Assembly (NCBI GenBank): GCA_030272155.1
Contig: CP126192.1
Coordinates: 8,280,501-8,344,500 of the forward strand
Source: Tetradesmus obliquus
Lineage: Eukaryota; Chlorophyta; Chlorophyceae; Sphaeropleales; Scenedesmaceae
Direction: 5' to 3'
DNA length: 64,000 bases
Made by a program: the position numbers and the translations under genes. The notes beneath the pieces were generated by a model. The model did no database searches, was not told the origin of the DNA, and was given only the letters and a program-made list of their open reading frames with translations. Positions 3,795 through 61,929 of the stretch are shown here, one piece after another (the first letter of the stretch is position 1; every line of letters begins with the position of its first letter).

Positions 3795-6131
3795 GAAGAC
3801 CAGCGCCAGCGCACTTGCAGGTGAAAGATTTTGAAAGACAACAGTAACGTGTTGCGTTCGCACACGCGCTTATGATCTGAGCGCTGTCATCAGCAACAGA
3901 TGTTGTCATTAGCCTCGTGCGTGCTTCGTGGTGAGGTAAATTTTGTGAATATGTGCGATGATTGTGTGAACAGACCGACTTCAAGGCTTGCCCGCGAACA
4001 ACAGCCCCCGGCGGTCAAACCTGGGTCAACTCCTGTCGGCCAAACCCGGGTTCTCCGACATGAAACGCTCTGATGGTATCACAGTAAAGGCGCTGCCGTC
4101 CTATCACGGTCTAGTCAGTAATAAGACCTAAACTTGATGGATCAATGCTTACACCTAATGGACACAGTTGTGCAGGCACTCCTATATGGCAGCACACTCC
4201 TGTACACAGAGCACCTCCACCCAGCAGCTGCTCCGCTCAAGCTGAGGTGCTGCTGCTCAGTTACTGAAACACCACTTCACCTGGTCTCCACTGGCAACTG
4301 GCAGCCAATGCAATGCTTGCCCATCACTCAGCGTCCGCATGCAATGCCAGCCTCCCTTAGGGCTCAGCGGACTTCGGCTGCAGACATCGTCAAGCACGGT
4401 GCTTGCCTGCCCTGCAGGGCTCGCACGCTACCAGCAACCATTCCGTGTGCGGAATGGTGGGATCCAGCAGACACACAATGATGCTTCCTGCAGTTCATTT
4501 ATGTGCTGCGCCCACATGAAACAGCCAACAGCAAAGTGCATCCAGCCACCAGCTGCGCCTGCTGCTTCCACCACAGTGCCACAAGATGCGTGGATCCTAG
4601 CAACTAAGCCGCTGCTTGAACACATGAAAGAGCGTAGCACCTGCACGTGAATGCCGGTCCCTGGAACTATAAGCAATCGATTCCACCTGAGCTGCATAAC
4701 CACCTGGCCTGGACTGCCTGAGCCAGAAGACGAAACGAACAATGCCAGCACTGCTGATGCTACCAGCTGCACCATGCCTGCAGGTACAGCTGCCCACCAT
4801 ATGCATGCTGTTGCATGTTATGCGTCTCTGGCAGCAAACAAGCAATGCTGCCCACACACCACCTGTCTACAGCACCTTTCCGCTGCACAGCTGCCTCCAC
4901 ATGTCGGCATGCCTATGTGCCCACGGCAGCACATGCAGGAGCGAACAGCCAGCATTCACACACCGCCTAGGAGGAATCAATGCCTGCCCGGTGGGGCTCA
5001 GGCCAAAATGCAGAGCACAAAGCAGCAGTACCAGCCAACCTGCATCAGGTGCCGAGCTCAGGCTCACTGGCTACCTGCTATTATGATACCTACTGCTTCA
5101 TCAGTGACTTGAGTGTCACAGCAGCACGCTTCTGCCAACAACAAACACAGCCACACTGCACCGCCTACGCGCTATGGGGCACTGCAAGAAAAACCCCAAC
5201 CAGCTGCTGCTGCTCCTGCATCACCACCTCCGCCATCGCCACCACTGCCACGGCAAAACACCTGTCTTAGAGATGCGTACCAGAGCGTCCTTTGCACTCA
5301 TTACGCAAGCGTTGCAGCAGCATAGCCGCCATACCTCTGCTACTACCAGTGAGCAGCCATACGGCCATCAATGATCCAGACCCCAACAGCTTCTCCTAAT
5401 GAACCAGCGTCGAACCCGATGCTGCCAAGCACCATGCCATGTTCCCGCCCACCAACTGATGCAGCACTGATTTGTGCTGACATACACACAACCCGGCTTT
5501 CACTGAGCAACAACCGTCACCAACGCACGATTATACAATCCTGCAAGCAGCAGCTGAGACGGCAGCTGCTGCAGCAGGACCCTACACCCGCCCTCTTGAC
5601 CATTGGCTGGCCGTCAATCATGCACACACACTTCAACCCAATGGCCTGCATGTGCTTTATCAGCACCATGCACGTAGCTTCCCAGTTCCTTCCAGTGCAT
5701 GCATGAAATGTGCACTGCAGCACCATGGACGTGAATGCAACACACTGTTGCGGACTGAAGCTGTTTACGCCTTCCTGCAGCCACCAGGCAAAGTTGCCAC
5801 CACATGCACAGCTGTGCAGCAGGTCACAGGTCACCACCACTGACTGCAGTCAGTAACAGCACAGGATGCAAAACACTTGCTCAAGCGTGGCCACCATCAT
5901 TCGTCCTACGAGTGACTTTCACCAGATAGGTCCGCCCATGTGCCGCTGCACATGCCTCACATGCAATCTCTCCAATCCCCACACACCCACCAGTCACGCA
6001 TGACCAAACACTCCCACCGCCTACACACACCTACACACAGCGAATACACACACAGCACAGCTCAAGACCTGTCTGCTATACACACGCAACCAGCCACAGA
6101 CCGGCCAACCCCGCCGAAACCATCCAGCTAC
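3795..6131. other. Intergenic region, no supported gene
   Basis: This lies between the start of the lectin-domain gene and the stop of the F-box/WD40 gene, both on the minus strand. The plus strand is rich in C and A (CA- and CCA-rich runs near 5930-6110). Open frames up to about 150 codons occur, but they lack domain-like sequence and overlap each other on both strands. The stretch may include a long 3' UTR of the F-box gene and the promoter of the lectin gene. I see no RNA gene or transposon. Confidence 0.5.
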
Positions 6132-28128: not shown

Positions 28129-28775
28129 GGGCACACTACTGCTCTCCGCCTGCTCCTGCTGCTGTGCCTGCTGCTGCTGCTCCTCTCGCTGCTGCTGCTG
28201 CTCCTCTCGCTGCTGCTGCTGCTGCACCTGCTGCTGCTGCTGCCGCATTGAGGGCTGTGCCAGCCGCAGCCGCTGCTCTAGTTTCAGACCCTTCCCAACA
28301 GTCTCTGCTGCTTTTGCCATGGCCTCAAAGGCCTCCAGCCTCCGAGTGACCTCATCTTGAGGCAGCCCGCGGTCCGTGCCCTCACACACGGCCGTCTCCC
28401 GCAGCGCCTGCTGCTCCTGCAGCACGTCCAGCGCGGCCTGGCAGCAGCAGCAACAGCAGTACGAAGCAAACATCAAATGACAGGTCGCATTGGGCGGGTT
28501 TGTGATCAAGATATGCAGCGCCTGCTGCTCCTGCAGCACGTCCAGCGCGGCCTGGCAGCAGCAGCAACAGCAGTACGAAGCAAACATCAAATGACAGGTC
28601 GCATTGGGCGGGTTTGTGATCAAGATATGCAGCGCCTGCTGCTCCTGCAGCACGTCCAGCGCAGCCTGGCAGCAGCAGCAGCAGCACGAAGCAAACATCA
28701 AATGACAGGTCGCATTTGGCAGGCTTGTGATCAAGATATGCAGCGCCTGCTGCTCCTGCAGCACGTCCAGCGCAG

Positions 28776-28811
<36 letters not shown>

Positions 28812-37958: not shown

Positions 37959-38419
37959 ATGGCTGACGAAGAGTACGATCCGGATGCACTGGATGCCAAG
38001 GAGGAGGAGGACGATGACAGCGTGAGCCAGCAGGGGATCTGCTGCACATGCTGTGCCAAGCAACAGCACGAGTGCAGCATGCTGATATGAGCCACACTGC
38101 TGCTGTTGTTTTGCCAAATGCAGCATGAGTCCAGCAAGGAGCGCATCATCGCACTCATCGATGCAGACCAGTCCATGCTGGCTACGTTTGAGGACGATGT
38201 GAGCGCAGGGGCCCTGTGCAGTGCAGTACATGCAGCGCTGGTAGGACAGGGTGGATCGCGCGCAACAGCAGCAGCGGCAGCGCAGCGCCTTTGTTGCATG
38301 GCAGCTGTGCAGCAGCTGCTGCGGCAGCAAAAGTTGATGCAGAACCGTCCATGCTGGCCACGTTTGAGGATGACTTGAGCGTTGAGGGCATGCACAGTGC
38401 CTTTGTTGCATAGCAGCGG

Positions 38420-38452
<33 letters not shown>

Positions 38453-39511
38453 GCAGGTTGTGGTGTTGGCAACAGCTGCGCTGAGTGCAACAGCTCAGGC
38501 ATTGGGCTGCTGCGTCTGTGCGCATCGTTCCTTGGCAGTTACAAGCAAACTGCGCAGCGCTTGCTGCCTCCCAACATTTGCGCAGACAGCTCCTGTGTTC
38601 GTAAAGTGAACCACAATCCATGTACTGCCCTGCTGCTGCCGCTGCTGCTGCTGCCGCTGCTGCTGCTGCCGCTGCAGGGTACGGAGCGCAGCTACCTGGC
38701 CTGGGCCATGTTCCTGCTGGAGCAGCAGTGCAGCGCGCGCATACGCGCCAGCCCCAATGACGAGATCGGCGTCATCTTCTATAGCACGGTGAGACTGCTG
38801 CCCCATCCATAGCCGTAACTGCACAGGCACTGGAGCAGTGTGCGCATACGCGTCAGGGCCATGTGAGCCAGCCAGTTCTGAGATCTGCGTCATCTTCTGC
38901 AGCATGGTCCGATGCACTGCTGCTGCAGCAGGAGCAGCCGCGCGCCTGCAATATAGCACGCCTGTACTGCTGCTGCGCCGTGCGCAACTGCATCCGCCTC
39001 ATCTTGTTTCCCTGCAGAAGCAACGCATGAGTCTGGTTTACATGCAGACTCTGTCTTGCCACCTCCTGGGGTGAAACCATGCTCCTTGAAACACCCCGCT
39101 ACCCTGCACAAGCAACGCAGTGAGTCTGGTGACCATGCGCCTGTCTCACTGTCTGCCTGTTTTGTTCTGTTGGGAAATAAACCACGCATCTTGCCTCTGG
39201 CACGCTTGAATCCTGCAGAAGCAGCGCAGCGAGTCTGATGAGCTGCGCTCCTTTGAGCACGTCTGGGAGCACGTGGCGCTGGCGCCGCCAGATGCGGGCA
39301 CCATCCGCAAGCTGAGGGACTTCCAGGGTGAGCTATGTTACATATATGTTACACGACTGTTACAAGACTGTTATCCCTTTGACAGTGGTGTTGGATGCCA
39401 GGTGCATGCGAAGTCAGCGCGTGGCATTCTGCATGGCGGGATGCAGCTGTTACCCTTGTCGTGTTGAACCGTGACTGTTCTGCACATACCATGCGGCGAC
39501 TCTGTCGCCGA

Positions 39512-39555
<44 letters not shown>

Positions 39556-40577
39556 TTATGTCTTGTGCAGAGGCCAGCTTTCAGGATCAGCCGGGCTGTG
39601 ATGACGTGGCTGCAGCGCCAGGCAGGGCAGCAGAGGACCTCAAGAATGGGCTGTGGGCCTGCTGGGACCTGCTCACAAAGTGGGTGCACCAGCTGCAACA
39701 CAGCAATGCACTCAAGCGTGTGTGCTGTGCTTGTGTGCTTGCATGCTGTTGTGTGTCCTGTCATGCAGTGACAGGCTAGAGCCCGCTGGCAGATCATTAT
39801 GTTGCCTTGTGGGGGTCCTGCTGTGGAGTGCTGATGCGCTGCTATTCAGTGTGATCTAAACAGCCGTGCTATTCAGTGTGATCTACACAGCCGTGCTATT
39901 CAGTGTGATTTAAACAGCTGTGCGTCTGCTGCATGGCCGAAGTAACCTGCCCGCCTGCTGGCTGTTGTCTGCAGGGGTGGTGCAGCCAGTGCGCGGGTTG
40001 ACAAGAGCCTGCTCATATTCACCAACAACCCCGAACCTTGTTTTCTAGACAGACCTGCCATGCCAGCTTTGTTGATTTTACCTGCTGTCTTGCAGGGGTG
40101 GTGCAGCCAGTGCGCGTGTTGACAAGAGCCTGCTCATATTCACCAACAACCCCGACCCGCTGCATGACGCAGGCAGCGCAGCACCACACCTACGGTGAGC
40201 GGCTGCAGCAGCCATTAGCTGCGCTGCTGTTGTGGCATACATTGCCAGCCAACTAGCTCAGCAGCGCTTGCATGATGCCTTTTCTAGTAACGAAGCGCCA
40301 CACATATACTGTGAGCCCCTGTGGCTGGGAGAACACCCGGCTGCAGCACTATTCACTGATGTTGCAGCAGGCATCTGCGCCCCGTTGTCGCAATTGTGGT
40401 CAAACAGCACCCTGTAGAGAAGCATCAGCTGGTCGCCAGCTTCCTTCACACAGCAAGGATCTATTGCACCTGTGTTGTGCATGTGCTGTTGCAGGGAGCA
40501 GCTGCACAGCCGTGCACGGGAGCTGGGGGGCCTGGCTGTGTCAATAGAGGTGGTGCCGCTGGTGCAGGTGGGCATGG

Positions 40578-40630
<53 letters not shown>

Positions 40631-40976
40631 CCCTGCTGTGTCGATAGAAGTGGTTGCGCTGGTGCCGGTGGACATGCCTGCTGCTGCTGCTTCAGGCACC
40701 TGCTGTCGTTGCTGCGGGCACATGCTAGCAACTGTTTCATGGAAGTGCCGTAGAACCTGTGGCAGGTGGCTGACAGTTGAGCTCTTGCGTGATTTCTGCG
40801 TGTGCCACATTCGTACGCTCCTGCTGACTCTGCTGCTGGCGCTGCTGCTACTACTGCTGCTGCTGCTGCAGCTGTCTGGCCCATCTGCCTTTGACTACGG
40901 CCCCTTCTGGCGGGGGCTGGTGCAGGAGGCCAGCTCAGCAGCTCGACTAACACTCTGACTGTCACTATGTGATGTT

Positions 40977-41042
<66 letters not shown>

Positions 41043-44018
41043 CTGCCGCTGCTGCAGCTGTCTGACCCAGCGGCCTTCGACTATGGCCCCTTCTGGCGGG
41101 GGCTGCTGCAGGAGGCCAGCTCAGCAGCACGGGGCTGTGAGGATGGGCTGGCTGAGGCGGGGCAGGCTGCTGCTTTGCAAATGGATGAGGCGCCGGAGAG
41201 CCTGCTGGTGCGCTGCATGACTTGATGTGGATTCAAGCTGACTGTTGTGTGCCTCACAGCTGCTGCTGTGGGATGAGCAATGCACAGCTGCGCTTCATGC
41301 GGCAGGGTCAACACATTTCTGTGGCTGTTGCGTACATAAGCACTGGCAGCATTGGCAGCGTGGGGCTGTGAGGATGGGCTGGCTGAGGCGGGGCAGGCTG
41401 CTGCTTTGCAAATGGATGAGGCGCCTGGGAGCCTGCTGGTGGGTGAAGTTCTTTATAATAGTTGCAAGCTGACTGTTTTTGTGTGTCTCGCAGCATGCTG
41501 CTGAGGTGCGTTTATGCAGAGTTGTGCTGCATACGGCAAACACGATTGATTTTGTTGGCAGTTGCTGGCATTGGCATCAGGCCAAGGTGGACGGCGTGCT
41601 CGGCATCAATGTGTGCATTGCCTGCACGCAATCACAGCGTGTGGCAGAGGCCTGTTGCCTTACGGCTGTTGTACAAGCATTGCACAACATCATGCTGTTC
41701 AAATGTTAGCACCTCCCGTTGCAAGCCAGGGTCGATCGTGTGCGCAGCATCAACCTGCGCATCGCGCGCAAGCGGCTGACATGCTCGTGCTTGACATGTG
41801 CCATGTGCTGCTGCGCACACTGTTGATGTTTGCGCAGGCCAAGGTGGACCGTGTGCGCGGCATCAACCTGCGCATCGCGCGCAAGCGTCCGCTGGCGGCG
41901 CTCACGTGGAGCCTAGCGCCAGGCCTCAAGATAGGCGTGCAGGTGCGGCCAGCGCGGTGCCTTGTGCTGTGGTGATTGCCGCAGCTGTTGTGTGTTTGGC
42001 CTGAGTGTCGCTCACGTGAAGCCTGGCGTCGAGGCTCAGGATTGGCATGCACGTGCGCGCAGTGCTGTGCCATGTGATTTGTTGATTGCCGTAGCTTACC
42101 ACTGCCCTGACGTCTCACTTATTTGCCACAAGAATGCTAGAGGCATAGGGGCTTGTGGGTTTGGGCTGGCTGCGCTCATGTGGAGCCTGGCGCCAGGCCT
42201 CAAGATAGGCGTGCAGGTGCGGCCAGGGGTTGTGGGGTTGTTGAGGCCAGCAGCTGCTGGTAGTGTAGTGTGATATAGCTTGAGTGGACACAGGTTACTG
42301 GATGCAAATTGGGGATTGTGACAGAGCTCTTGAGCCGGCAGACACTAGCCTGAGATCTTTTTCACCAACGTTGGTTTCTTGGCATGCTCACAATTGGTTG
42401 TATTTGGTGGCATACGCGCTTGCTGGAGGCAAGCGTGCATCGTGCTTCGCCCACACCCGTGCATCTGTCCCCTCTGCGCTGCATTTCACTCTGCTGCGCT
42501 GTGCTGCAGTTGTATGGCATGGTACGGATCGCCAAGCGCCCCGCTCACAAGTACATCACACCTACACCTTGTGTGACACACCCAACCGTGCTCGACATGC
42601 CTATGCCGTCTGCATGTTGCTGCGCTGCAGCTGTACGGCATGGTGCAGATTGCCAAGCGCCCCGCGCACAAGTACATCACGCGGGACAAGGCTGACCTGG
42701 TCACCTCCAGCAATGCCCTGGTGGCAGCAGACACAGGCACCATTCTGCCCAGTGTGCAGCACAAGGCCTTTGTACCCGACAAGAAGCTGGAGGGGCGCTT
42801 TGACAAGGTGGGCATATGTTACATGACATGTTACATGTGTTGCGTTTCTGGTACAAGCGGAGGTGCAGCACAAGGCAGCAGACACCGGCACCATCCTGCC
42901 GAATGTACAGCACAAGGCGTTTGCACCCTACAAGAAGCTGGAGGGGCCATTTGACAAGGTGCACATGTGTTATATAACATGTTGCATGTATGTTACAAGC
43001 GGGGGTGCAGTGTAAGGCAGCAGACACAGGCACCATCCTGCCCAGTGTGCAGCACAAGGCCTTTGTACCCGACAAGAAGCTGGAGGGGCGCTTTGACAAG
43101 GTACAGAAGCGTTACAGTCATGTTACATGAGATTTGGCCTTTGTTCAAAAAGGGTGTGCATCACAAGGCAGCACACACCGGCGCCACCCTGCCTAGTGTG
43201 CAGCACAAGGCATTCGTGCCTGGTAAGAAGCAAAAGGGGCGGTTTGAGAAGCTGCAGGCAACCTTTTTGTTGACGCTGATGTTGAATGATGACATGTAAC
43301 TTGTTACTTCGTGATCTGCGTGTCCGCATGTTTCAACAGGTGATGCTGAGCAGAGCAGAAGAGCGGGAGCTGCGCACCCTGCGGCCCAAGGGCCTGACCC
43401 TGCTGGGCTTCAAGCCTGCATCATGCTTGAAGGACAGCCACCAGCTAGGACCCAGCAGGTGCGAGTGATTCTGCTACTGCTGCTGCTGTAAAAAGGCAGT
43501 GGCATGCTGTGCTCTGTCAGCGTGTACACGCATTTGTTGTGGACTGTATCATGACAAGGCAGCTGGAAGGTGATAAGTCTGCTGCAGCAACTGCTGCGGC
43601 AGGCGACAAGTTGCTGCTGCCTCTGCAGCAGACAACGCAATGCTGCTGCTGCTGCTACCCTTGTGCTTGCAGGTTTGTGTACCCAGATGAGCGTTGGCTA
43701 AAAGGCAGCACGGCGGCCTATGTCGCGCTTTACAGGGCATGCACTGTGGGCAGGGGTGAGCGGCCCATCCCCTAAATATGTGCTGCAGCATGACATGGCC
43801 ATGCCATTGCATGATACATACTGCCATGATGTGCCCCCTGTCCATTTGTTCAAACATATCCAGCAAAAGTGCAGGCGTCGTATCGTATTGCTCAGCCATG
43901 CGTTGCATTGGGGCGCTGCTGTTGTAATACTTGGTGAAACGGTATGTGCAGTTTGTGGATGGCAACGCCAATGCTGCTGCTGCTGCGGATGCCTTTTTTC
44001 TCCAGCATCTAATGCAAA

Positions 44019-44052
<34 letters not shown>

Positions 44053-45468
44053 TTTCTTGGCATCCAGAGGAGCCGCTGATGGCCGTGTGCAGCTACGTGC
44101 CGCGCTCCGGCGGCATGCCCAGCCTGGCGGCAATGCTGCCGCAGCGGCCGGGCTACGAGACAGGCGATGACGGCACGGTAAGGCATTACTCTTACGTAGA
44201 TGAGTGAGCTTCAGTTTCTATCACTGCAGCATGTGGGTCTGCGGTTCAGCTTTCTGAAGCCAGCACAAGGGCAGCTCTTTCATTGAGAAGTTGTGTTGCT
44301 TGTTTCAAAAGCAGTTGTTGAGAAATCAGCAGCTAGTTGCCTAGCCACAGTGACGTGTGTGTGCCGCATTGGCGGCACGCCCAGCCTGGCAGCAAGTTGC
44401 CGCAGTGGCCAGGCTACGAGACATGCAACGACAGCACAGTACGCGGCTGCCAGGCTGTGCTTGTTTTGGGCTATTGTTGCAGCGTGTGTATTAACAGCGT
44501 GTGGTTTTGGGCCTGAGATGAGGCCAAAACTAGAACAGAGGCTGATGTGGTGCGGCAGCAGCATGTGGCAGGGTTGACAAGTATAGCCATCTGTATGTGC
44601 CGCAGTTGTTGTGCCCCTTGCAGGTGCAGCTGGTGGACAGCCCTGGCTTTCACATGCTGCTGCTGCCGCCCCTGCGGGATGACCGTGCACACAGGATGAT
44701 GATGTGCATCACCACCTGCTGCTGTTTGTGTCCTGCAGGTGCAGCTGGTGACAGCCGAGAACAAAAATCAACACCGAACAGCTCGACAGCCACCGACGCG
44801 TGTTATTGTGTGCCTGCCTGTTTTATTTTTGCGCGTCGCACATGCAGCTAGTGGACAGCCCTGGCTTCCACATGCTGCTGCTGCCCTTCATAATATGGCG
44901 CACGCACAATATCTTCTCTGCCCTGCCGCCTGCTGTTATGTGTCAACTGCAGGTGCAGCTGGTGGACAGCCCTGGCTTCCACATGCTGCTGCTGCCGTTC
45001 AGGGACGACGCGCATCCACAATACTCTGTGTTCCTGCCGCCTTCTGTTGTTTGCCCCCTGCAGGTGCAGCTGGTAGACAGCCCTGGATTCCACATGCTGC
45101 TGCTGCCCTTCAGGGACGATGTGCGGGCGCCCGAAGCGGAGCAGGCCATGCTGAAGCGGCTGGACGGCGTGCCACCACGCGCAAGCAACGATCAGGTGGG
45201 CGCAGGCGCTGATGTTCTATGAGTAGGCTACGCTCAAGGGTGCCTAGGGAGTAGCCAAATTGCTACACTAAACAGAAAAGCTACACTCAAAGTAGCCTAC
45301 TACTTTTGCGTATGTAGATGCTGTGAGTGCGTACAGCACTCGTAAGCGGCTGCTGCGTTGTAGTTCGTTTGCAGCAGCAGTATGCGCGTATGTTTGTGCC
45401 GGTGACGTGGTGGTGCTGCATGCTGCTGCCAGCTGTCGTGCGTGCAGAGGTGCCTGCTGCATCTGCAT

Positions 45469-45500
<32 letters not shown>

Positions 45501-46190
45501 CTGCTGTTGTCTGCTGTGGCGGCTCACGCTACTCATGGTTTCCCCAGATAGCCTCACAGCAGGCTGATCTTATGTCTACCGCCACATATAATGAGGCACG
45601 CTGCTGCTGCTGCTGCTGCTGCCGCTGCTGCTGCTGCTGCTGCTACCATCCATGTTGCTGCTGCCGAGGCGCTCATCAGCGCCTTGAGCCTAGACATTCC
45701 CGGGGAGCCGCCTTTCAGCAGCATTCTAACTGAAAAGGGCTGATGCTGCTGCTGTTGTGCCAGGTTGCTGCTGCCGAGGCGCTGATCAGCGCCTTGAGCC
45801 TAGACATTCCCGGGGAGCCGCCTTTCAGCAGCATTCTAACTGAAAAGGGCTGCTGCTGCTGCTGCTGTTGTGCCAGGTTGCTGCTGCCGAGGCGCTCATC
45901 AGCGCCTTGAGCCTAGACATTCCCGGGGAGCCGCCTTTCAGCAGCATTCTAACTGAAAAGGGCTGCTGCTGCTGCTGCTGCTGTTGTGCCAGGTTGCTGC
46001 TGCCGAGGCGCTCATCAGCGCCTTGAGCCTAGACATTCCCGGGGAGCCGCCTTTCAGCAGCATTCTAACTGAAAAGGGCTGCTGCTGCTGCTGCTGCTGT
46101 TGTGCCAGGTTGCTGCTGCCGAGGCGCTGATCAGCGCCTTGAGCCTAGACATTCCCGGGGAGCCGCCTTTCAGCAGCATTCTAACTGAAA

Positions 46191-46227
<37 letters not shown>

Positions 46228-46318
46228 TGCCAGGTTGCTGCTGCCGAGGCGCTGATCAGCGCCTTGAGCCTAGACATTGCCGGGGAGCCGCCTTTCAGCA
46301 GCATTCTAACTGAAAAGG

Positions 46319-46349
<31 letters not shown>

Positions 46350-47249
46350 TGCCAGGTTGCTGCTGCCGAGGCGCTCATCAGCGCCTTGAGCCTAGACATT
46401 CCCGGGGAGCTGCCTTTCAGCAGCATTCTCACTGAAAACTGCTGCTGCTGCTGCTGCTGCTGCTGTTGTGCCAGGTTGCTGCTGCCGAGGCGCTCATCAG
46501 CGCCTTGAGCCTAGACATTCCCGGGGAGCTGCCTTTCAGCAGCATTCTCACTGAAAACTGCTGCTGCTGCTGCTGCTGCTGCTGTTGTGCCAGGTTGCTG
46601 CTGCCGAGGCGCTCATCAGCGCCTTGAGCCTAGACATTCCCGGGGAGCTGCCTTTCAGCAGCATTCTCACTGAAAAGGGCTGCTGCTGCTGCTGTTGTGC
46701 CAGGTTGCTGCTGCCGAGGCGCTGATCAGCGCCTTGAGCCTAGACATTCCCGGGGAGCCGCCTTTCAGCAGCATTCTCACTGAAAACTGCTGCTGCTGCT
46801 GCTGCTGCTGCTGTTGTGCCAGGTTGCTGCTGCCGAGGCGCTCATCAGCGCCTTGAGCCTAGACATTCCCGGGGAGCTGCCTTTCAGCAGCATTCTCACT
46901 GAAAACTGCTGCTGCTGCTGCTGCTGCTGCTGTTGTGCCAGGTTGCTGCTGCCGAGGCGCTCATCAGCGCCTTGAGCCTAGACATTCCCGGGGAGCTGCC
47001 TTTCAGCAGCATTCTCACTGAAAAGGGCTGCTGCTGCTGCTGTTGTGCCAGGTTGCTGCTGCCGAGGCGCTGATCAGCGCCTTGAGCCTAGACATTCCCG
47101 GGGAGCCGCCTTTCAGCAGCATTCTCACTGAAAACTGCTGCTGCTGCTGCTGCTGCTGTTGTGCCAGGTTGCTGCTGCCGAGGCGCTCATCAGCGCCTTG
47201 AGCCTAGACATTCCCGGGGAGCTGCCTTTCAGCAGCATTCTCACTGAAA

Positions 47250-47283
<34 letters not shown>

Positions 47284-47371
47284 TGCCAGGTTGCTGCTGC
47301 CGAGGCGCTCATCAGCGCCTTGAGCCTAGACATTCCCGGGGAGCTGCCTTTCAGCAGCATTCTCACTGAAA

Positions 47372-47405
<34 letters not shown>

Positions 47406-47612
47406 TGCCAGGTTGCTGCTGCCGAGGCGCTCATCAGCGCCTTGAGCCTAGACATTCCCGGGGAGCTGCCTTTCAGCAGCATTCTCACTGAAAACTGCTG
47501 CTGCTGCTGCTGCTGCTGCTGTTGTGCCAGGTTGCTGCTGCCGAGGCGCTCATCAGCGCCTTGAGCCTAGACATTCCCGGGGAGCTGCCTTTCAGCAGCA
47601 TTCTCACTGAAA

Positions 47613-47646
<34 letters not shown>

Positions 47647-47850
47647 TGCCAGGTTGCTGCTGCCGAGGCGCTCATCAGCGCCTTGAGCCTAGACATTCCC
47701 GGGGAGCCGCCTTTCAGCAGCATTCTCACTGAAAACTGCTGCTGCTGCTGCTGCTGCTGTTGTGCCAGGTTGCTGCTGCCGAGGCGCTCATCAGCGCCTT
47801 GAGCCTAGACATTCCCGGGGAGCTGCCTTTCAGCAGCATTCTCACTGAAA

Positions 47851-47884
<34 letters not shown>

Positions 47885-48091
47885 TGCCAGGTTGCTGCTG
47901 CCGAGGCGCTCATCAGCGCCTTGAGCCTAGACATTCCCGGGGAGCTGCCTTTCAGCAGCATTCTCACTGAAAACTGCTGCTGCTGCTGCTGCTGCTGCTG
48001 TTGTGCCAGGTTGCTGCTGCCGAGGCGCTCATCAGCGCCTTGAGCCTAGACATTCCCGGGGAGCTGCCTTTCAGCAGCATTCTCACTGAAA

Positions 48092-48128
<37 letters not shown>

Positions 48129-48332
48129 TGCCAGGTTGCTGCTGCCGAGGCGCTCATCAGCGCCTTGAGCCTAGACATTCCCGGGGAGCCGCCTTTCAGC
48201 AGCATTCTCACTGAAAACTGCTGCTGCTGCTGCTGCTGCTGTTGTGCCAGGTTGCTGCTGCCGAGGCGCTCATCAGCGCCTTGAGCCTAGACATTCCCGG
48301 GGAGCTGCCTTTCAGCAGCATTCTCACTGAAA

Positions 48333-48366
<34 letters not shown>

Positions 48367-48769
48367 TGCCAGGTTGCTGCTGCCGAGGCGCTCATCAGCG
48401 CCTTGAGCCTAGACATTCCCGGGGAGCCGCCCTTCAGCAGCACCCTCATCGACAACCCACACCTGGCCCGGTACTGGCAGGTGCTGGAGGTGAGCCTGCT
48501 GCTGCTGCTGCTGCTCCTGTTGCAGTGCTGCTGCTGCTGTTGCAGTGCTTTTGCTGGGGTTACAGCTGCCTGGCTAGTGCTGTGGCATCGTCTAGAGCCA
48601 CACCATGCAAGGTACTGGTAAGTGCTGGAGGTGAGGCGGCTGCTGCGGCTCCTACTGCCGCTGCTGCTGAGGTGGTTGACAGTGAGATTGCAGTTTACAA
48701 GCAAGCAGTCAAACGAAAGTGATGTATGCAGTTAAGGATCCAACCGGGTGGATCAGCTGCCCTAACAAC

Positions 48770-48846
<77 letters not shown>

Positions 48847-49977
48847 AGGACCTGGCCATGGGTGACGAGCCGCGGCCCCTGGAGGACCTGGAGGACGACA
48901 CAGCGCCCGAGGCTGAGGGCATCGACGCACATGGCGCCACCATTGTGAGGGTGGTGAAGTGGGAAAGACAGCCAGGCTGCCCTGATGTCGCATCATCATC
49001 TTTGTCACCATTCGACCCCATTAATACGCCACGGCCATGTTTGATGGCTAGTGCATGTTGGCGTGCATGGGCCTCTGCCTAGTGGTCTGCTGTGTGATGG
49101 TTGGGCACTACTGCCAAGTTTGACCGCGTCTTTTGACACGTCATATGACACATCATATGACGCATCATATGATTGCGAAGCTGGAAGGGTCTGTCATGCA
49201 GCGCACACTGAGCGACAGTGTGTGGTCAGCACTGCCCCTGCAGGATTTCGTTGCATTTGGCAGCTTAGACGCCAATTGCGGGTCCCAGCATGTCAAGTTA
49301 TGACTACAAACTTTATTATCCCTTACAGCAGTGGTGTGCCGCTGTGCTGCGCCCTGCAGGATGCGTTCAAGCTGGCGGTGTGGGGCAGCACAGACGGCCC
49401 GCCCGCGCAGAAGAAGGCAGCAGCAGCAGGCACCAAGCGCAAGGCTGCAGAGGTCGATGTGAGTGCAGCGCTGGTGGCAGTGCTGCTGCTGGTCCCAGAT
49501 AGTGCAGCAGCTGCGCTTGCTTGAGTTTGGCAGGGCCTGTGACAGCGCATGGCTTGCACGCGATTGTGACAGCGCATGGCTTGCTCGCGATTGTGTGACT
49601 GCCTGTTGCTTCAGGAGAGTCTGCAACCTGCAAGCCTTGTCCCTGCTGCTAGCTGCGCTTCTTTCAGTTTGGACACTACACGCCCTGCTGCTGTCCTCGC
49701 AGGGAAGTACCGGTTTCGTTCTCCTTGCTTTGTAACATGTATTCCAGGCTGATGTTGTCATTTCTGGCTGCTGCTGTACCTGCAGGGCACTGTTGCAGAG
49801 GAGTATGCGAAGCATGACTGGCGGGGCCTGGCAGCAAAGCCAGGCAAGGCTGGCTTGGAAAAGCTGTCAGCAGCGCTGCTGAAGACGTACTTGAAGTTCC
49901 ATGGGCTGGCAGTCAGCGGCAACAAGCCGGAGCTGATCGCAAGGATACAGGAGCACGTGGCGAAGCAGCCGCAGTAG
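37959..49977 (+). CDS. KU70: KU70 homologue (ATP-dependent DNA helicase II 70 kDa subunit / XRCC6), 681 aa
   Basis: Eighteen exons close in frame: 37959-38021, 38124-38198, 38678-38788, 39219-39327, 39571-39717, 40107-40194, 40495-40567, 41058-41207, 41838-41942, 42631-42807, 43340-43458, 43673-43755, 44068-44177, 45064-45195, 48373-48489, 48849-48944, 49360-49458, 49786-49977. An acidic start (MADEEYDPDALDAKEEEDDD) leads into the Ku vWA domain (KERIIALIDADQSML; GVIFYST; DKSLLIFTNNPDP). The Ku core follows (KIGVQLYGMVQIAKRPAHKY; LTLLGFKP; FVYPDERWLKGS; VQLVDSPGFHMLLLPF), then the C-terminal arm and a SAP DNA-binding motif (LLKTYLKFHGLAVSGNKPEL). KU70 with KU80 forms the ring that binds broken DNA ends in non-homologous end joining and also acts at telomeres. 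The length is slightly above the usual ~610-620 aa. The exon 5/6 junction has an alternative pairing. The introns are full of exon-edge copies. Confidence 0.93.
38337..38382 (+). repeat. Downstream copy of the KU70 exon 2 end
   Basis: The 3' edge of exon 2 (DADQSMLATFEDD plus GTGAGCG donor) recurs in intron 2 as DAEPSMLATFEDD followed by TTGAGCG. The GT of the donor has been lost in the copy. Confidence 0.85.
38830..38915 (+). repeat. Downstream copy of the KU70 exon 3 end
   Basis: The end of exon 3 (SARIRASPNDEIGVIFYST) recurs in diverged form around GCATACGCGTCAG and ATCTGCGTCATCTTCTGCAGCA. Two short copies of the exon 4 start (AAGCAACGCA-GTGAGTCTG) lie at about 39015 and 39108, upstream of the true exon 4. 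Confidence 0.75.
40870..41448 (+). repeat. KU70 exon 8 with an upstream 5' copy and a downstream 3' copy
   Basis: The true exon 8 is 41058-41207. Its first ~75 bases (LSDPAAFDYGPFWRGL) recur upstream at about 40870-40945. Its last ~80 bases (GCEDGLAEAGQAAALQMDEAP) recur downstream at 41366-41445, followed by an intact GTGGGT donor. A (CTG)20 tract (40980-41040) separates the upstream copy from the exon. Confidence 0.9.
41575..42230 (+). repeat. KU70 exon 9 flanked by two upstream and two downstream partial copies
   Basis: Upstream copies of KVDRVRGINLRIA lie at about 41580-41632 and 41727-41775. The true exon is 41838-41942. Downstream copies of LTWSLAPGLKIGVQ lie at about 42008-42058 (diverged) and 42172-42228 (near-identical, donor GTGCGG kept). 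Confidence 0.9.
42490..43262 (+). repeat. KU70 exon 10 with one upstream and three downstream partial copies
   Basis: An upstream copy of the exon start (LYGMVRIAKRPAHKYIT) lies at about 42510-42570. The true exon is 42631-42807. Copies of its 3' half (AADTGTILPSVQHKAFVP) lie at about 42870-42957, 43016-43101 and 43165-43253, roughly 140 bases apart. The first two keep a GT donor; the third has lost it. The 43016-43101 copy is almost identical to the exon. Confidence 0.92.
44368..44440 (+). repeat. Downstream copy of the KU70 exon 13 end
   Basis: The exon 13 end (GGMPSLAAMLPQRPGYET, GTAAGG donor) recurs as a diverged GGTPSLAASCRSGQATR-like frame with a CAGTACGC end. Confidence 0.8.
44625..45115 (+). 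repeat. Five copies of the KU70 exon 14 start
   Basis: CTGCAG followed by VQLVDSPGFHMLLLPF occurs at about 44622, 44739 (truncated), 44844, 44952 and 45064. Each has an acceptor. Only the last continues into the full exon ending at 45195. Spacing is about 105-115 bases. Confidence 0.93.
45651..48440 (+). repeat. 24-copy array of the KU70 exon 15 acceptor and 5' edge, interleaved with CTG tracts
   Basis: The unit is about 110-125 bases. It has a TTGTGCCAG acceptor, then GTTGCTGCTGCCGAGGCGCT and the rest of the exon start encoding VAAAEALISALSLDIPGE, ending CAGCAGCATTCTCACTGAAAA, then (CTG)4-11. Copies begin near 45653, 45764, 45876, 45992, 46109, 46231, 46356 and so on to 48373. The first copy lacks the normal acceptor (CATG in place of CCAG). 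Copies 1-7 mostly share CATTCTAACTG; later ones share CATTCTCACTG. Only the last copy has the real continuation (STLIDNPHLARYW) and the donor at 48490. Reading on past any other copy shifts frame into TGA/TAG. Between about 45735 and 48320 no frame on either strand stays open for 60 codons. Confidence 0.97.
48771..48848 (+). repeat. (CTG)25 tract ending in the CAG acceptor of KU70 exon 16
   Basis: An uninterrupted CTG run of about 25 units directly forms the 3' splice site (CTGCAG then GACCTGGCC). A diverged copy of the end of exon 15 lies just upstream at 48593-48635. Confidence 0.95.
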
Positions 49978-50047
49978 CAGCAGGTGTAGCAGCTGCAGCG
50001 GAGGTGTTTTAGCCGCACCTGCTGATGGCAATGTTTCCCTTGTGTTG

Positions 50048-50192
50048 CATGACTGGCGGGGCCTGGCAGCCAAGCCAGGCAAGCGCTGCTGAAGACGTAC
50101 CTCAAGTTCCATGGCCTGGCAGTCAGCTGCAGCGGCAACAAGCCGGAGCTGATCGCTAGGATCCAGGAGCACGTGGCACAGCAGCCGCAGTA
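50048..50192 (+). pseudogene. Partial copy of the KU70 last exon in the 3' flank
   Basis: About 70 bases after the KU70 stop, DWRGLAAKPGK and the SAP-motif part (KTYLKFHGLAVS, NKPELIARIQEHV) recur, ending in the same CCGCAGTAG stop. Relative to the real exon the copy lacks the segment encoding AGLEKLS and has a short insertion. It is not spliced into the gene model and may be transcribed as 3' UTR. Confidence 0.88.
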
Positions 50193-50942
50193 GCAGCAGT
50201 TGCTGCAGTTGCTGCACATTCAAAAGATGTTGGCGTGAGCGATCGAGGTGTGCTGCACCTGATAGATAGAGGGGTTACACTGTGTGTTCATGCGGCATAC
50301 GCCACCACAGACACCTGGTAAAATAGGAAGCTGCAAGCAGCTCAGCTGCACCTGATGGCGGCTTGTACACGGCTGCCATGTGTATCAGCAGTGAGTGCAT
50401 GTGCCACAGAGTGTTGCCCTGGTTGCATGTGAATGAAGACCTTGACTGGACTTGACTGCCACCAGTGCGCAGGCCATGCAAATGAGCAGCAGCGCATGTG
50501 CGTGCAACTGTTCCTGCTGTTGCTTGCTGATGCTTGTGCTTCAGCTGTTGCTAGTAGTGTTGCAGCGACAGCGCTTGTTGTGCAGGGGATGGGTGTGTGC
50601 TGGAAGCAGGCTGCAACATGATGACAGCGGGGCTGCAGGTCATGCCTCTGGGCATCGCCAGCCTGGGTCTCTTTAAGTCTTTCAAGTGGCTGTGCCTGTG
50701 GCTTGACCTTGCAGTTATGTTGTGGCCTGTCAGCAGCCTTGGGCTGTCCGACACCCAGAGGCTGCATGCTGGCACAGGCTGGTGTTGCGTAATAGATCCA
50801 CAAAGTAAGCAGTGTTTGTCAGGCATCTTTGCGGCATCCGGCAATTCCTCAACTAATACAGTAGGTGTGTTTGGTCGGCTGTGCTATTGACAGGAAATAC
50901 ACGCCGCCTAGCTAGGAAAAATCTGCGCATCAGGCAAAAATG
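50193..50942. other. Intergenic, no supported gene
   Basis: The stretch lies between KU70 and the tRNA gene. A hydrophobic open frame at 50597-50890 has no recognisable domain and overlaps frames on the other strand. Confidence 0.4.
50936..50940 (-). terminator. RNA polymerase III T-run terminator of the tRNA
   Basis: Five T residues on the minus strand lie immediately downstream of the tRNA 3' end. This is the standard position and length for Pol III termination. Confidence 0.8.
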
Positions 50943-51013
50943 GGGAACTGCGGGAATTGAACCCGCGACCTCTCGTACCCTAAACGAGAATCATACCACT
51001 AGACCAAGTTCCC
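50943..51013 (-). tRNA. tRNA-Pro (anticodon AGG)
   Basis: On the minus strand the sequence opens GGGAACTTGGTCTAGTGG. The acceptor stem GGGAACT pairs with AGTTCCC. The anticodon stem CTCGT/ACGAG encloses the loop TTAGGGT, giving anticodon AGG for proline codons CCU/CCC. The T-arm GCGGG-TTCAATT-CCCGC is perfect. No intron and no encoded CCA; CCCCA follows the acceptor by chance. Internal A and B boxes are present. Confidence 0.95.

Positions 51014-61834: not shown

Positions 61835-61927
<93 letters not shown>
61835..61927. repeat. (GAT)31 microsatellite
   Basis: Uninterrupted GAT triplets, read as poly-Ser (TCA) or ATC on the other strand. It is intergenic. Confidence 0.97.

Positions 61928-61929
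<2 letters not shown>

Follow-up and report, generated by a model that had tools for sequence, protein, structure and literature searches.

An array of exon-edge copies in the KU70 gene of Tetradesmus obliquus, a probable case of neutral boundary duplication

The KU70 gene of the green alga Tetradesmus obliquus carries, in the intron ahead of its exon 15, a long tandem array of copies of the 5' edge of that exon. Such an arrangement raises the question of how the acceptor that keeps the reading frame is chosen among its near-identical neighbours, and whether the array is a device of the gene or debris that the gene tolerates. We have analysed the locus in a 64,000-nucleotide stretch of DNA, the window (C2:8280501-8344500 of a 104.66-Mb genome in 17 contigs), and compared it with other genes of the same genome. 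The array is probably the outcome of neutral runaway duplication of the exon 15 boundary, tolerated through exon definition.

Our model of the gene (37959..49977; like all KU70 features given below, on the plus strand) consists of 18 coding exons with introns that are all GT-AG, and its product is identical over all 672 amino acids to the annotated T. obliquus protein P0002 (OEZ86_001190). All four of the domains Ku_N, Ku, Ku_C and SAP score above the Pfam cut-offs in this product, and its best relative among solved structures is the KU70 chain 1jeq_A (E 4.8e-40), which we take to be the human one. All 49 among the matches listed in a protein search of the whole genome with KU70 fall inside this gene; a search of the genome with the Ku family profile gave no match, which we attribute to the limit of an exon-by-exon search because the protein search does list those 49. 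The exons are 63-192 nt long and the introns 102-886 nt, apart from intron 14, which with its array measures 3,177 nt. It is bounded by exon 14 (45064..45195), with the donor CAG/GTGGGC starting at 45196, and by the real exon 15 (48373..48489), which encodes 39 amino acids at the start of the Ku C-terminal arm region and is followed by the donor GAG/GTGAGC at 48490. The upstream donor and the real exon named in the original prediction agree with this model.

Copying of the exon edge is as extensive as had been predicted: 24 exact matches to a 20-base anchor from the exon start lie in the window, from 45654 to 48373, the last copy being the real exon. The copies are 110-125 bp apart and head to tail, which is the unit arrangement of a minisatellite or variable number tandem repeat, and Tandem Repeats Finder (TRF) scores the array at 4,749 with a period of 241 and at 4,690 with a period of 119. 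When the genome was searched with a 239-base probe from the array, 16 of 16 among the matches listed (the best candidates being scored) lay at the KU70 locus. The count of 24 copies stands but that of 24 acceptors has to be lowered to 23, of which 22 are decoys: copy 1 (45654..45763) holds the 5' part of exon 15 and is preceded by CCATCCAT, with CAT and no AG acceptor at the junction. Copies 2-23 (45764..48372) supply the 22 decoy 3' splice sites, each unit running from the 5' part of the exon through a CTAAC or CTCAC motif and a CTG tract to TTGTGCCAG. The CTG tracts do vary as described (3-11 units); they do not separate the copies but lie inside the unit, after the motif. This motif, presumably the branch point, reads CTAAC as far as unit 6 and CTCAC from unit 7 to unit 23, and its A lies 35-50 nt before the AG. 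With tract and motif both within it, each unit therefore looks like a complete 3' splice-site module. From the last 18 bases of the intron to the first two of the exon, the acceptors of copies 2-24 are alike, and all 23 sites score 14.2 bits with a position weight matrix.

Exon bases 1-59 hold nothing that consistently separates the decoys from the real exon, the variation among the 24 copies being confined to positions 21, 46 and 56; beyond them the real exon stands apart from every decoy at positions 60, 71, 72, 77, 78 and 81. A concerted 5' part with a separate tail is the pattern that would be expected of unequal exchange inside the shared part. Twelve of the 23 units are distinct, with two sets of five identical units and seven units that are unique, and the array is young and still moving. 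An intronic origin of decoy bases 67-84 was considered and dropped, as in copies 7-23 (CTCAC/AAC type) they match the exon by eye at 13 of 18 positions; these bases are probably diverged exon. The other edge of exon 15 has its own partial copy in intron 15 (48598..48630; 27/33 identical), consisting of the 3' end of the exon with a donor.

The units also contain AGGCGCT....AGCGCCT (45777-45794 and equivalents), a perfect 18-nt palindrome in the CTGATC variants; together with the adjoining CTG tract it makes two hairpin-prone elements, which might favour duplication. Trinucleotide runs found by TRF inside KU70 are nearly all CTG, GCT or TGC on the gene strand, often just 5' of acceptors, where they may act as pyrimidine-like tracts; a GCA run at 38421 is the lone exception.

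Use of a decoy would not give a complete KU70 protein. As had been predicted, the decoy copies are without a usable donor by score, the GT contexts in the array reaching -3.5, -0.1, -0.5 and -1.8 bits where the lowest leave-one-out score of the 17 real KU70 donors is 4.1 bits, and read-through from each of the 22 decoys runs into a stop 129-156 nt past the acceptor. The outcome would be a protein of 548-557 amino acids instead of 672, with a predicted tail of about 28 exon-like residues, a cysteine run and ARLLLPRR with or without SSAP; this modelled product would be devoid of SAP and of most of the C-terminal arm. The 22 near-identical decoys between the donor at 45196 and copy 24 do, as proposed, have to be skipped for KU70 protein to be made.

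How copy 24 is recognized can be narrowed down by comparison of the copies. Between -277 and +55 no base separates copy 20 from copy 24, and copies 18 and 22 agree with copy 24 as far as +59. There is therefore no sequence mark of copy 24 in the range shared with copy 20, and with one decoy identical over 332 bases the choice must rest on more distant sequence, most likely downstream. A strong donor (48490, 117 nt on) stands behind copy 24 only. Since copy 24 alone has such a donor and no discriminating signal is present near the acceptor, exon definition fits the choice best, and the likeliest mark of copy 24 would be this donor 117 nt downstream. Copy 24 is also the inner site, whose use makes the intron longer, while pairing for the shortest intron would favour a decoy.

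The tail of copy 24 is present in each of the database proteins P0001-P0004. Two of these, P0001 and P0002, are annotated isoform models of one locus, the present one, and P0004 is another T. obliquus entry. The contigs from which P0003, of near-identical sequence, was read do not exceed 2,454 nt, far less than the KU70 gene, which here spans 12 kb; P0003 therefore represents spliced RNA, in whose source exon 14 was joined to the real exon 15. Its label, lgn, presumably stands for an assembly of public reads. P0003 has Thr for Ala of P0002 in AAAEALIS, within the stretch in which no fixed difference sets the 24 copies apart; should an array be present in the source of P0003, it may have a variant of its own at this place. 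A protein search with the decoy tail found none among 120 candidates, P0001-P0004 being matched through the shared part only; a truncated isoform would escape this search if it had been clustered with P0001 (7 members in the cluster).

Exon 15 is not alone in having such copies. Each KU70 exon was aligned to every KU70 intron and to 700 bp on either side. The top score among the 306 non-adjacent exon/intron pairs is 30, a value exceeded by 16 of the 36 adjacent pairs, and for each of these 16 matches none of 50 shuffles reaches the score. Twelve of the 18 exons have partial copies in their flanking introns or flanks. Upstream half-exon copies with an intact acceptor belong to exon 6 (39975..40037; 61/63 identical), exon 8 (40872..40945; 67/74) and exon 14 (best copy 44953..45008, with further ones at about 44624, 44739 and 44843, partly read by eye), and the one of exon 9 (41725..41774; 46/50) has lost its acceptor to AA. 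Downstream copies with an intact donor follow exon 8 (41355..41438; 80/84) and exon 9 (42165..42216; 49/52), and that of exon 13 (44361..44437; 66/77) has kept its GT. Around exon 10 the copies enter the annotated isoform P0001, as a 12-nt microexon encoding LYGM (42510..42521) from the upstream copy and as an extra exon of 30 amino acids, CKAADTG...FDK (43011..43100), from a downstream one. Beyond the stop of the gene lies a copy of most of the last exon with the stop codon (50047..50193; 133/141 identical).

A second gene, GSH1 (glutamate-cysteine ligase), has the same kind of copies. It lies in L015, one of 20 sampled 10-kb pieces of the genome, has seven modelled exons (the first incomplete at its start), and was picked because its copies stood out in an ab initio survey and not by random choice. 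Six of its 14 adjacent pairs score above 31, the maximum of the 42 non-adjacent pairs, and five of the seven modelled exons have partial copies. All 22 copies in KU70 and GSH1 fit an edge geometry in which the 5' part of an exon is copied upstream of it or the 3' part downstream: the upstream copies (8 of 8) begin with the first or second base of the exon, the downstream ones (14 of 14) have their ends no more than 10 nt from that of the exon, and none of the 22 covers the whole exon. This is the half-exon geometry that tandem duplication across an exon-intron edge must give. The identities of the copies range over 81-99% and the offsets to the best-matching copy, the array aside, over 100-293 bp; the spread of identities suggests that edge duplication is a continuing process. 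The splice dinucleotide is kept in 16 of the 20 copies that have a splice-site side, against 16.4 expected from their own identities. Decoy dinucleotides show neither removal nor retention in excess of what neutral decay would give, in keeping with neutral debris.

The annotated GSH1 protein P0011 (OEZ86_012514) runs through intron 4 to the donor of a half-exon copy; translation of L015 gives exactly its insert, and P0013, the GSH1 of another T. obliquus assembly, is without it. Downstream of exon 5 of GSH1, the 3' part of that exon is repeated in an array (L015:3690-4618; TRF period 303 bp), in which by eye some copies have GTGAGG and others ATTGAGG. The runs on the sense strand of GSH1 are CAG, so the CTG-strand rule of KU70 is not general.

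Firm counts are those of KU70 and GSH1 only. For other loci, an ab initio model seeded with the KU70 exons was used with no further training; self-training variants were dropped, one having drifted onto CAG/CTG repeats and a constrained one having degraded the KU70 model. Outside KU70 the survey gave 58 predicted exons that measure 50 nt or more, those of GSH1 included, and repeat-rich ones were then skipped. With L015 excluded, 16 matches score at least 50, and nine of these have clean half-exon geometry (five in L023, two in L020, one in L021 and one on the minus strand of the window); the predicted genes in L012, L019, L026 and L030 gave no match at this score. Pfam assigned four of five ab initio proteins, to UBA (L020), mannosyltransferase (L021), DUF659 (L026) and ELMO (L030), and gave no match for that of L023.

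The KU70 array is an extreme, runaway case of a common class. Among the 39 non-overlapping TRF arrays with a period of at least 30 in 264 kb (the window and the 20 pieces, without N), it has the most copies, 24 by hand and 22.8 by TRF at period 119; the runner-up, in L026, has 14.2 copies of 279 bp.

The reading that we favour, neutral boundary duplication tolerated through exon definition, would run as follows. The T. obliquus genome would keep gaining short tandem duplications of roughly 100-300 bp. Where such a duplication straddles an exon-intron edge, the exon would stay intact and the intron would gain a half-exon copy together with a second splice site; duplications placed elsewhere in a gene would tend to break the protein or to leave no exon mark. 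In intron 14 the 3' splice-site module and the first part of exon 15 would have been duplicated, and the array would then have grown by unequal exchange to 23 extra copies. Functional mRNA would join exon 14 to copy 24, the spliceosome pairing sites across the exon, and copy 24 would be chosen because it alone has a good donor within about 120 nt downstream. Decoy-spliced mRNA would probably be removed by nonsense-mediated decay. From the patterns described we infer the order of the duplications, exon definition as the selector, the rate of decoy skipping, the decay of decoy products and near-neutrality.

A number of points weigh against this reading. An exonic signal or enhancer in bases 60-117 of copy 24 could take the place of exon definition, and for Volvox and Chlamydomonas a case for intron definition has been made on the grounds of intron length and retention (PMC4378016, in the part available). 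That the inner site is used is partly circular, real exons being the inner copies by definition. The sole RNA-derived sequence, P0003, is not from this strain. Skipping may be leaky, as the annotated models P0001 and P0011 use other half-exon copies. In the ab initio loci, 4 of the 16 matches are unclear, the predicted exons being matched whole or nearly so and perhaps themselves copies (L021 exon 3 twice, L023 exon 8 and L025 exon 4), and 3 of the 16 are off the geometry (L023 exon 10, internal, and L025 exon 5 twice). Finally, 20 of the 22 duplication families in KU70, GSH1 and their flanks involve an exon, where random placement would give about 10.6; families without an exon number 2 against 11.4 expected, and one of the two is a pair of exon 4 decoys.

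This excess of exons leads to the alternative that survives best, namely that exon edges are preferentially duplicated and not merely retained. It is compatible with neutral boundary duplication, and we regard it as possible though doubtful. Its source might be, for example, nicks or breaks associated with transcription, splicing or CTG-CAG hairpins close to splice sites and joined by the pathway of KU70 itself, non-homologous end joining. Small tandem duplications at staggered breaks make up 60.9% of the mutagenic outcomes in mouse cells but 11.7% when Ku80 is missing, according to the available part of PMC8355091, and by analogy Ku-dependent end joining is a plausible source pathway here. 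Acceptor-like sites also occur in 18 of the 23 other arrays, against 8.6 expected from shuffles. This enrichment lends weak support, because CTG-rich sequence scores well with the acceptor matrix and is not retained in dinucleotide shuffles, and donor-like sites are not enriched in the same 23 arrays (13 against 13.0 expected). Intron-only pairs, moreover, are lost from view sooner since both of their sides diverge, which explains part of the exon bias, perhaps not all of it. Firm exon models are at hand in two genes, one of them picked for its conspicuous copies.

A regulated rheostat, in which the 22 decoys compete with the real acceptor and the lengths of array and CTG tracts set the share of full-length KU70, looks unlikely to us. 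It would be served by decoy acceptors that score like the real one (14.2 bits at all 23 sites), by half-exon copies that are used in annotated proteins (KU70 exon 10 and GSH1 exon 4), and by the precedent of the human F7 gene, which has splice-site repeats at the edge of an exon and in which cryptic sites further downstream become active when the donor there is mutated (PMC6627357, available part). Competition between decoy and real acceptors is nevertheless unproven, no decoy-tail protein was found among the 120 database candidates, and many other exons have the same structures, with decoy dinucleotides that show no sign of selection. The dedicated splicing switch of the original prediction is not supported, the same kind of edge duplication being present at 12 of 18 KU70 and 5 of 7 modelled GSH1 exons and the dinucleotides being kept at 16 of 20 against 16.4 expected. 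A dedicated decoy cassette was rejected as well, the same debris being present at other exons.

Recursive splicing, by which intron 14 would be removed decoy by decoy to the same final mRNA, is very improbable: copies 2-24 do start with CAG/GT and the array holds 22 instances of CAG/GTTGCT, but GTTGCT scores -0.5 bits as a donor against the real KU70 minimum of 4.1, a judgement by score only. An array inflated or invented by misassembly is about equally improbable. Tandem arrays are error-prone and the copy number rests on one assembly, but the 17 contigs are 3.05-11.14 Mb long (104.66 Mb in total), 12 of the 23 units are distinct with seven unique, and the flanking gene is intact. Such contig continuity suggests long reads. 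A cluster of mutually exclusive or cassette exons is rejected, no GT in the array scoring like a donor.

Some neighbouring features may be recorded. A tRNA-Pro (AGG) lies on the minus strand at 50942-51013, just 3' of KU70, and is the sole match of Rfam and tRNA scans of the window. The window also has a 114-bp unit in 3.5 copies that are 96% alike (28401-28798) and a perfect GAT tract of 31.7 units (61835-61929), and two long arrays, of 14.2 units of 279 bp and 5.5 units of 345 bp, lie beside the predicted DUF659 gene in L026:16-6039.

The KU70 array offers a natural test of splice-site choice. A case of exon definition in this alga would matter because intron definition has been argued for its relatives Volvox and Chlamydomonas (PMC4378016, as far as available). 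If half-exon copies are as common genome-wide as in KU70 and GSH1, T. obliquus would hold a graded series of boundary duplications and many natural experiments on exon versus intron definition in green algae. Gene annotation there can take up decoy exons, as the NCBI proteins of KU70 and GSH1 appear to have done. A bolder extension, which we consider rather improbable, is that introns grow largely by Ku-made edge duplications that are survived through cross-exon pairing, and that the length of the KU70 array could feed back on KU70 dose; many exons would then stand beside decoy halves of themselves, and KU70 would record the errors of its own pathway. Such feedback is possible by analogy, with one published footing (Ku80; PMC8355091, in part), yet the duplications are not confined to KU70.

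Among published accounts, judged from titles and the starts of abstracts, we found none of half-exon copies in T. obliquus; they are not described in PMC5552973, nor in the available parts of PMC8780407, PMC7590803 and PMC7955037. Related structures are known elsewhere, the nearest of them in the human F7 gene and in a potato gene. Human internal tandem repeats (PMC2812944, available part) are likewise minisatellite-like units that lie in exons and introns, some of 62-228 bp; they concern genes in segmental duplications, and that part describes no array of an exon edge with its acceptor. The model of intron gain by tandem duplication of AGGT (PMC3443670, available part) resembles KU70 in that the duplicated segments contain AG/GT, but the KU70 segment is part intron and part exon and its GT falls below donor score. 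In the potato gene for an RNA-dependent RNA polymerase, a tandem duplication spans the boundary of intron 1 and exon 2 and includes, as in KU70, the branch site, pyrimidine tract, acceptor and 5' part of the exon; a single duplication there made a new intron, whereas in KU70 24 copies lengthen an old one (PMC4974935, in the part available). Our 18-exon model has no new intron, intron 14 being merely longer, and isoform P0001 adds exons and introns around exon 10.

The human F7 gene also has repeats at an exon edge, each of which reportedly copies the donor region. They form a variable number of 37-bp repeats at the donor of exon 7, in intron 7 (PMC6627357, here and below in the part available). 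In both genes a splice-site region is repeated from the exon edge into the intron; the exon-proximal site is the one used in F7 (PMC6627357) and the one predicted to be used in KU70. The unit includes the splice site, reportedly in F7 and, in KU70, in 23 of the 24 copies. The two differ in side and size, with the donor and 37 bp in F7 and the acceptor and about 119 bp in KU70 (PMC6627357). By oriented scanning, the most upstream 5' splice site alone is used in F7, whereas the acceptor that keeps the frame in KU70 is the most downstream one (PMC6627357). The KU70 exon 15 array is the acceptor-side mirror image of F7.

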